A stretch of 64,000 bases of DNA from Romboutsia hominis (lineage in GTDB: Bacteria; Bacillota; Clostridia; Peptostreptococcales; Peptostreptococcaceae): NCBI RefSeq assembly GCF_900002575.1, contig NZ_LN650648.1, positions 2,829,565-2,893,564 of the forward strand, given 5' to 3'. This document shows, piece after piece, positions 27,016-44,929 of this stretch (the stretch's first letter is position 1; each line of letters begins with the position of its first letter). The notes beneath the pieces are model-generated. The model made no database searches, had not been told where the DNA came from, and was given only the letters and a program-made list of their open reading frames with translations. The position numbers and the translations under genes were made by a program.

Positions 27016-27047
27016 AATTTTACTCCCCTTTTTAATAAAGCCTTAAT

Positions 27048-27145
27048 AAAAAATCCTCATACCACAGGGTATAAGGATTCTATCTATACATAACATTACA
27101 TTTATAAGCTATGAGATATCTTTCCCAGCCTCTCTGGACTAGTTT
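27048..27145 (-). promoter_or_regulatory. PyrR-type attenuator 2 (proximal)
   Basis: On the minus strand the anti-antiterminator loop AGTCCAGAGAGGCT (complement of 27127-27140) is an exact match to the known PyrR-binding core. It is flanked by TCTTT/AAAGA arms. An intrinsic terminator follows at 27052-27079 (AATCCTTATACC... GGTATGAGGATT, then TTTTTT). When UMP or UTP is high, PyrR would hold the loop and let the terminator form just before pyrF. Confidence 0.88.
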
Positions 27146-27177
27146 AAAAGACTTTATTATATTTTTATTTTAAAAAT

Positions 27178-27235
27178 TCACTTCGTTCATATCGCCAACG
27201 ATATGGCTTCGTATTCACTCAGTCACATCCGTTGC
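27178..27235. repeat. Unexplained GC-richer insert with hairpin between the attenuators
   Basis: About 58 bases of clearly higher GC than the rest of the leader. On the minus strand a 7-bp hairpin CATATCG-TTGG-CGATATG is flanked on both sides by ACGAAG and GTGAAT words in permuted order. It lies between the terminator of attenuator 1 and the PyrR loop of attenuator 2 and belongs to neither. It may be a small dispersed palindromic element. No second copy was seen in this window. Confidence 0.5.
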
Positions 27236-27240
27236 TAAAA

Positions 27241-27330
27241 AAACCTCTAGCCAATCCAGCTAGAGGTTATATATACAAAATTAATTATTATAGTTAACCT
27301 TTTTAGCCTCTCTGGACTAGTTTCAAGGAA
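27241..27330 (-). promoter_or_regulatory. PyrR-type attenuator 1 (distal)
   Basis: A second exact AGTCCAGAGAGGCT loop (complement of 27305-27318), flanked by CCTT/AAGG arms, is followed by a terminator at 27242-27268 (AACCTCTAGC/GCTAGAGGTT stem, then eight T residues on the minus strand). It stands upstream of attenuator 2 in the same leader, so transcription must pass two PyrR-controlled terminators to reach pyrF. Confidence 0.88.
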
Positions 27331-27403
27331 TTTCTATTTTATTTTAATTACATACTACACTTCATATCCTCTCGGGATATTTTAAAGCTTTATCTTGTAT
27401 ACA

Positions 27404-42094: not shown

Positions 42095-44629
42095 TTAATC
42101 TACCTTCTCTATAGGTTTCGAAACTAACAAAATAACTTGAATCATTGTAGTTATTAATGATGTTTTTCTTTTATAAGCCATATATCTTCCATCCCAAGAA
42201 TCACAGTATTTTTCTTTGAACTTCTTTAGACCTTGGAATGAATAGAATTTATGTCCATGTGAATATACCTTGGCAGCTATCTTCTCGCCTAGAAATGCAT
42301 ACTTTGATATACCTACATTTGATAATGGAGCCATACCCATATTAAATCTTGAGTATCCATTTTCTTTTCCCCACTCAAATAGATTAACGAACATGAAGTC
42401 CATTATTCCATTACAAGTTTCATGTGAAAAACGCATTAAGTCTATCGATAAAGTTTTATGACCATCATACATCGGCATAAAGTTAGCAAATCCCTTTATT
42501 TCACCATCTTTATTTTTAACTATAGATATTGGATTTCTACTTAAATACTCTACATCGAAAAATCCTATTGAGAATCCTTTTTCTTGTCTTCCACATAGCC
42601 ATTCATCAGATACAGCTTTTATACTATCCATAAATTCATCACTGAAAGGAGGCTTTACAACTTCAAATGTATATTCTTCTTTACTAACTCTTGATATAGC
42701 ATTTCTTACACTCTTCATTTTTCTTCCTTCTAATGTAAATTTATTTAAATCTACAGCTGCCTCTTCTCCTAATTTAAAGAACTCATATCCTGTTTCATGA
42801 AGGTATGGAATTAATTTATCATCTATAGCACAGAATGTTGGTATATATCCATATTTATCAGCTAACTCATAGAATTCCTGAATAGTATTAAATATATTTT
42901 CATCATTCCCTACTGGATTTCCTAATATAAATATCTTATTAGCATAAGTTTGATATTGTATTAAAACATCCTTATCTTTATTTATATAAACATACTTATC
43001 ATTTAAATATATAAAGTGTATTATAGATGTCCCGCCAAATTTATTTAGTATATTTTCTACATCATCTTTACATTCTTCTAATTTCATCTTAGGGAATTCA
43101 TTTTTACCATTCTTATAATATATAATACATAAGAATAATATGGCTATTATAAATCCAGCTATACTTAAAAACATTACATTTGATGATGCATTTGAAAATT
43201 GTATTTGATATTGAGTAAAAGGTATCTTTCCTACTTTTCCATGAACGCTTGCGTAGAAAGTATATAGATATAGTATTAAGAAAGATAGCAATATTATTAC
43301 ATCTTGTATAAATATTCCCCAACGCATTACAAAACTTTCTCTATAAAATTGTTTTTTACCAAGCCAAATTATAAGACCTACTATTACTAAATACAATGCT
43401 CTACCATAGTCCGTTCCTTGTGCGAAAGTCACCCCAATACATAAGGCAACTATTATTAAAGTTAATTTATAAATATTTTTTGATTTATAAATTAATAATC
43501 TAGACATAGCTATAAGTAAAAATCCTAATACTATGGCAAATTTATCTGGTATATATATTATTGATAGATGTGAGACTCTACTTATTATATTTATTTTATT
43601 TATAACTTCAGGAATAGCTTCTGATATTAACAGAATACTTCCTGTTAATAGTACAATAAGTACTATACCTATATGAGCCATTTTTGATAGTATAGTCATT
43701 ACTATATCTCTTATATCATCATCTACAGTCTTCCACATTACATTTCCATATAAAATTAATCCTATAATTAATGGAACTATATAATAAGAAATTCTATATA
43801 GGAATATAGCTAATAAAACTTTCTCTGATGGAACATTTAAAGCTTGTAATCCTAGTATCATTGTCAAATCAAAAGAACCAAGTCCTCCTGGTGATAAACT
43901 TACAATAGCCACTATAATTGCTAGTACAAATACCGGGAATAATTTCATAAATGATATATTTGCATCTAGTACTAACATGATAGAGTATATTAAAACTATA
44001 GTTGTTAACCATTCTAATGCTGATATTCCCATTATAGTTACCGCATCTTTAATATCTTTTCTATCTTCATCATTTCCCTTAATAAACTTATATATGAAGT
44101 ATATTGATATTGCCGGGAAATATACACTTATTATTAAAGTTAATATGCTTGTCCAATCATTTAACTTTAATGACTCAAAATTAGTGATGGCATATATGAA
44201 ACTCACCATAGAAAAACCAGTTAAATTTAAAGCTACTATTTTTGATATCTCTTTTACAAGTAACTTTTTGTCCTTCACATAATTACCATAAAAATTACTC
44301 TTTAATGCTATGGCTGTACTTCCTCCAAATCCAGCTATACTAGCAATTGAACTAGCTATCCATGAGAATTTATATAACTCCCTGTTATCTAAGTTGATAT
44401 TCACTCTTCTTTTTAGTACAAAATCGTAAAGACTTAAAGGAAGATATGAAATAATTCCTAAAAGTATTATTGTTATTGAGTTTATAAGCGTTAACTTATC
44501 TGCATATAGTTTAAATGTATTCATATTAAATGAAGAAACTACACTGATAAACTCTTTCATAACTATAACAAATATTACTAATGCTATTAAATACTTTAAT
44601 GTATTTTTTAATTTTACTTTATTTATAAT
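42095..44629 (-). CDS. mprF: Phosphatidylglycerol lysyltransferase/flippase MprF, non-canonical start
   Basis: MprF adds lysine (or alanine) from aminoacyl-tRNA to phosphatidylglycerol and flips the product, lowering surface charge and protecting against cationic peptides. N-terminal multi-helix flippase domain (about 1-480), C-terminal DUF2156 GNAT-type synthase (about 530-830) with VRNAISRVSKEEYTFEV, GFSIGFFDVEYL, SIDLMRFSH and RFNMGMAPLSNVG. The first ATG (44560, 821 aa) has no ribosome binding site and cuts off the first helix. The same frame extends upstream through NKVKLKNTLKYLIALVIFVIV to an AGGAGG site, but only ATT (44629) or ATA (44626) codons are available as starts, so I place the start at 44629. 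Confidence 0.85.
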   Translation of the reverse strand: MINKVKLKNTLKYLIALVIFVIVMKEFISVVSSFNMNTFKLYADKLTLINSITIILLGIISYLPLSLYDFVLKRRVNINLDNRELYKFSWIASSIASIAGFGGSTAIALKSNFYGNYVKDKKLLVKEISKIVALNLTGFSMVSFIYAITNFESLKLNDWTSILTLIISVYFPAISIYFIYKFIKGNDEDRKDIKDAVTIMGISALEWLTTIVLIYSIMLVLDANISFMKLFPVFVLAIIVAIVSLSPGGLGSFDLTMILGLQALNVPSEKVLLAIFLYRISYYIVPLIIGLILYGNVMWKTVDDDIRDIVMTILSKMAHIGIVLIVLLTGSILLISEAIPEVINKINIISRVSHLSIIYIPDKFAIVLGFLLIAMSRLLIYKSKNIYKLTLIIVALCIGVTFAQGTDYGRALYLVIVGLIIWLGKKQFYRESFVMRWGIFIQDVIILLSFLILYLYTFYASVHGKVGKIPFTQYQIQFSNASSNVMFLSIAGFIIAILFLCIIYYKNGKNEFPKMKLEECKDDVENILNKFGGTSIIHFIYLNDKYVYINKDKDVLIQYQTYANKIFILGNPVGNDENIFNTIQEFYELADKYGYIPTFCAIDDKLIPYLHETGYEFFKLGEEAAVDLNKFTLEGRKMKSVRNAISRVSKEEYTFEVVKPPFSDEFMDSIKAVSDEWLCGRQEKGFSIGFFDVEYLSRNPISIVKNKDGEIKGFANFMPMYDGHKTLSIDLMRFSHETCNGIMDFMFVNLFEWGKENGYSRFNMGMAPLSNVGISKYAFLGEKIAAKVYSHGHKFYSFQGLKKFKEKYCDSWDGRYMAYKRKTSLITTMIQVILLVSKPIEKVD

Positions 44630-44929
44630 TATAATCTCCTCCTTTTATATTTCTGATAATAAGGCTATTTTACCATACTTTGACACAATATATCCTTACA
44701 TTCTTCTTTATCTTATATAACAGATTTGTAAGAATTTAAATTTATTGTAAAAGTTTTGCCTGACAATATATATTATTCTACAAAAAAAAATAGATATTTA
44801 AAATCTATCCCTTTTTATTTTTAATAAACTTCTTAATACTATTGCTTTATATTACTAATAATGTTAAATATTCATACTATTTATTAATAATATAAATTTT
44901 AAAGATAACGGATTTATAGTTAACAATCT
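44630..44929. other. 300-base spacer upstream of mprF
   Basis: AT-rich. A hairpin ATAGATTTTAAATATCTAT (complement of 44790-44808) with nine T residues on the minus strand may terminate the UPF0178 gene, and the mprF promoter should lie between it and 44640. No open frame. Confidence 0.5.

Follow-up and report, generated by a model that had tools for sequence, protein, structure and literature searches.

A probable near-cognate start codon behind a strong Shine-Dalgarno site in a bacterial mprF gene

Where does translation of mprF begin if the expected start region of its reading frame holds none of the usual start codons? The gene, from a member of the Peptostreptococcaceae, lies on the minus strand of the window (the whole stretch of DNA analyzed, 64,000 nucleotides). 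A direct reading of that strand shows no stop codon in the frame of mprF between the TAA at 44647-44645 and the ATG at 44560, and no ATG, GTG or TTG between these two codons. The in-frame codons that follow the TAA are AAG GAG GAG ATT ATA ATT ATA AAT AAA GTA AAA TTA AAA AAT ACA TTA AAG TAT TTA ATA GCA TTA GTA ATA TTT GTT ATA GTT, up to ATG 44560. The features of the region are as follows.

42095-44629, minus strand: coding sequence of mprF through the stop codon, counted from ATT 44629 as the most likely start; 844 amino acids, with matches to NF033480 and Pfam
44627-44629, minus strand: ATT, the codon most likely to be the start, at 8 nt from AGGAGG (commonest spacing in the genome, 7-8 nt)
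44624-44626, minus strand: ATA, alternative start, 11 nt from AGGAGG, in gap-free alignment with the ATG codon in four relatives (L008, L010, L011, L012)
44630-44632, minus strand: ATA, also a candidate start but less likely, at 5 nt from AGGAGG and within the extended pairing
44638-44644, minus strand: Shine-Dalgarno site AAGGAGG (core AGGAGG 44643-44638); pairing extends to AAAAGGAGGAGAUUA, at -15.6 kcal/mol
44558-44560, minus strand: ATG, the first canonical codon, judged internal; +0.6 kcal/mol, and a different codon in most relatives

The original prediction held that mprF has no canonical start codon upstream of ATG 44560, that ATT 44629 stands eight bases from AGGAGG, and that ATG 44560 is without a ribosome binding site. 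All of this agrees with the direct reading of the strand, the 8 nt spacing and the pairing energy at ATG 44560, respectively; only the position of AGGAGG, given as 44640-44635, had to be moved, by about 3 bases, to 44643-44638.

Initiation signal and predicted mode of translation

Duplex energies were computed against the tail of the genome's own 16S (GGATCACCTCCTTTCT, found in L067). The pairing ahead of ATT 44629 and ATA 44626 reaches -15.6 kcal/mol, compared to +0.6 kcal/mol ahead of ATG 44560; the median for the best canonical site in 333 ORFs of the genome is -10.4 kcal/mol, and the strongest sites of ATG-started relatives pair at -15 to -16 kcal/mol. The region combines two features by which a non-canonical start can be recognized, namely, a strong Shine-Dalgarno site at proper spacing (AGGAGG 8 nt from ATT) and the lack of ATG, GTG and TTG at the homologous start.

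It seems likely that an intact mprF is translated at full length from the near-cognate codon AUU 44629 or, with lower probability, from AUA 44626 or 44632, with the strong Shine-Dalgarno site partly compensating for the codon and the level of MprF reduced. Under this scenario, the initiator tRNA would read AUU 44629, or less likely AUA 44626 or 44632, as fMet, while the extended, very strong pairing would keep the 30S subunit in place, partly offsetting the poor codon. The poor start codon would reduce the amount of MprF, which could, in principle, respond to IF3 activity. The analysis directly shows the anatomy of the start region, the homology of the N-terminus, the strength of the Shine-Dalgarno site and the rarity of the pattern in this genome. 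We infer initiation at an ATT or ATA codon, the choice among the three codons and the low output; the low level and the IF3 control, in particular, are extrapolated from reporter assays of other genes (PMC13009471) and the general IF3 rule (PMC4611024). Around the mprF start, the RNA fold shows nothing unusual (z 0.83), a promoter scan yielded generic AT-rich matches only, and a search for a structured leader in the form of an Rfam match at mprF came back empty.

The spacing between AGGAGG and the start codon in this genome peaks at 7-8 nt (14 of 63 cases at 8 nt, 10 at 5 nt and 3 at 11 nt). The spacing of 8 nt favors ATT 44629, and the ungapped register with the ATG of the four relatives favors ATA 44626. 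Provided that the start lies within the cluster, ATT 44629 is the moderately probable choice, ATA 44626 a possible but rather unlikely one, and ATA 44632 improbable. Sequence alone cannot separate ATT from ATA.

The N-terminus of MprF and its relatives

An MprF match was detected in 24 of the 71 genomes of the family, with the best matches 61-68% identical over the full length; no relatives were found in the plasmid collection (blastn) or among viral contigs. We read the start region at 22 further related mprF loci. In 20 of these, the start region contains an ATG that precedes the residue corresponding to 44560, and most of the starts in the ATG-bearing relatives sit behind a recognizable Shine-Dalgarno site; in L016 and L017, the starts lie 22 codons further upstream. 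L005 carries no ATG in this region, and the ATG of L031 is apparently out of frame because a run of A differs by one base. This locus (G058:C1:1274164-1276668) is a second mprF copy that has one A fewer in a run of 8 than its close relative L030, and the frame loss of its ATG is either an error or a real change.

The ATG of the relatives falls in the same region as the ATT/ATA cluster, which supports the predicted start near 44629, with a full-length N-terminus, rather than at ATG 44560. The codon aligned with ATG 44560 in most relatives is GTA, ATA, ATT, GTG, GCT, GTT, TTT or TTA, and 44560 is therefore judged to be an internal position. MprF proteins starting at this residue, which would have spoken against the original prediction, were sought in the 22 loci and not found.

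The mprF product matches the NCBIfam profile NF033480 (bifunc_MprF) with an E-value of 3.8e-244 and 812.8 bits vs a cut-off of 600, that is, above the curated threshold for the bifunctional lysylphosphatidylglycerol flippase/synthetase MprF and along the whole model, with residues 9-838 (numbered from ATT 44629) aligned to profile positions 2-841 of 841. Because the match begins at residue 9, the profile spans the stretch upstream of 44560, and the alignment requires the additional N-terminal residues. The Pfam domains LPG_synthase_C and LPG_synthase_TM are both present, the solved relatives 6lvf and 7duw align from residue 16, and the frame is intact beyond the start region. The flippase/synthase architecture of the bifunctional MprF (NF033480; 6lvf/7duw) is shared at full length; only the start codon differs here. 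Gene finders limited to ATG, GTG and TTG would begin this protein 23 codons late, cutting the first membrane helix.

Loss, retention or a different start

In the tree of 22 MprF proteins, mprF groups with L005 (from genome G065; support 100/99), its sister at 68% identity; the branch of L005 is longish. The sister gene, too, has no ATG at the Shine-Dalgarno site; it offers ATT, which pairs at -12.8 kcal/mol (GAGGTGG), or GTG, at only -3.7 kcal/mol. The sister probably starts at ATT, with GTG a possible start. This locus bears directly on the main competing explanation, namely, a recent loss, in which an ATG at 44626 became ATA in the strain or species, or was miscalled, such that MprF would be lowered by accident and not by design. 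Such an origin is consistent with the register of ATA 44626 with the ATG of the four relatives and has a precedent in the lineage-specific ATA start of citZ in S. aureus NCTC 8325-derived strains (PMC13009471). However, the rest of the mprF frame is undamaged, and the genome, the single representative of its genus and species in the set compared, is one contig that is 99.92% complete. A sequencing error or a fresh mutation in the strain is made less likely by the sister gene that likewise lacks the ATG; of the options in the original prediction, a start-codon mutation of the strain is accordingly weakened, with the species represented by one genome. Altogether, we consider a recent loss unlikely.

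Another possibility, also considered unlikely, is that mprF acquired its non-canonical start long ago and that selection has kept it in the clade that includes this genus and the G065 lineage, so that the lysylation of membrane lipids would depend on growth state or on the activity of initiation factors, as with infC. With regard to conservation of the codon, the picture is ambiguous: the sister lacks ATG and offers ATT or GTG, and 20 of the 22 related loci have ATG. Should the start prove genuine and under selection, a membrane-charge enzyme would join the few bacterial genes with output set by a poor start codon.

Translation from ATG 44560, producing an N-terminally shortened MprF, is highly improbable. 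This is the first canonical codon in the frame, and ATG is found at this position also in three relatives (L005, L008 and L012), but two of these, L008 and L012, possess their own well-placed upstream ATG. Moreover, ATG 44560 has no Shine-Dalgarno pairing, the 21 codons upstream are similar at the protein level in relatives, and the first hydrophobic helix would be incomplete in the shortened protein. Initiation in a different frame with a subsequent frameshift can be dismissed almost entirely, given that the sole ATG, GTG or TTG in any frame of the minus strand between the Shine-Dalgarno site and 44560 is a TTG with TAG two codons later. Unless the sequence contains an error, this refutes such a reading, and nothing in support of it was found.

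Non-canonical starts elsewhere in the genome and beyond

The reading favored here, translation of mprF from AUU or AUA, has counterparts in S. aureus, where translation begins at AUU in cvfC1 and at AUA in ccpN and infC, as well as in citZ of the NCTC 8325 lineage (PMC13009471). Extended Shine-Dalgarno motifs precede cvfC1, ccpN and infC, and reporters for cvfC1, ccpN and citZ yield about 10% of the AUG output, with ccpN reaching up to 30% in rich medium (PMC13009471). IF3 discriminates against codons outside the set of AUG, GUG and UUG, such as AUU, AUA and AUC; in E. coli, there is also discrimination against a Shine-Dalgarno site that is too extended (PMC4611024). Like these S. aureus genes, mprF combines an AUU or AUA codon and extended, strong pairing near the start in a Gram-positive host, with no canonical alternative equipped with a Shine-Dalgarno site, and so appears to fit the known class on the sequence features tested, conservation aside. 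In contrast, the S. aureus cases rest on ribosome profiling and reporters, whereas mprF is known here from sequence alone, and relatives share the starts of ccpN and cvfC1, unlike that of mprF, which is ATG in most relatives. Starts of this kind are rare but already known as a means of holding protein levels low; what this analysis contributes is the evidence from homology, the pairing energies of the Shine-Dalgarno sites, the base rate, the sister locus and kamC as a second gene.

Ribosomes of this genome would be expected to use ATT because its own infC and kamC start with this codon. The infC start is autoregulatory in E. coli, and the analogy to infC drawn in the original prediction holds for this genome, where infC (L054) indeed starts at ATT. 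The same codon starts infC in nearly all of the 30 Peptostreptococcaceae loci that were read (L037-L066), with ATA in L060. As in mprF, the ATT stands behind a strong Shine-Dalgarno site with spacing of the same order; unlike the conserved infC start, the mprF start is restricted to one lineage or a pair of lineages.

The base rate was estimated on 464 kb of the genome, the window plus 20 stretches spaced evenly and totaling 400 kb, with 333 ORFs of 150 codons or more; infC lay outside this sample. Three of the 333 were flagged for a strong Shine-Dalgarno site before ATT, ATA or ATC combined with the lack of an adequate canonical start: mprF, which shows the strongest case, kamC, and an ORF of 171 codons in L085. 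The mprF pattern is more than chance and is rare in the genome. The ORF at 5502-6227 of L067, with CTG, was set aside, with an ATG preceded by AGGA a few codons downstream.

The kamC gene (lysine 5,6-aminomutase reactivase ATPase, NF052383; L077:9056-10495, minus strand; G000:C1:1509056-1510495) lacks a canonical start over 43 codons and begins at ATT behind AAGGTGAT. Among the Peptostreptococcaceae kamC loci (L087-L096 and L098-L106), ATT, ATC or ATA stands at the best Shine-Dalgarno site in all except L106, which has ATG; in other Clostridia, the start is mostly ATG or TTG. Judging from these loci, kamC is a conserved non-canonical start, better supported by evolution than that of mprF, which gives Peptostreptococcaceae at least one more such start besides infC.

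Two further observations concern potential RNA elements. At L067:5495-5540, an inverted repeat comes after a strong GGAGGTGAT and precedes the likely ATG, with a weak site of its own, of a thymidylate-kinase-like gene; this arrangement may represent a structured leader. At 27045-27332 of the window, on the minus strand, there is a tandem pair of PyrR binding-site RNAs (Rfam RF00515).
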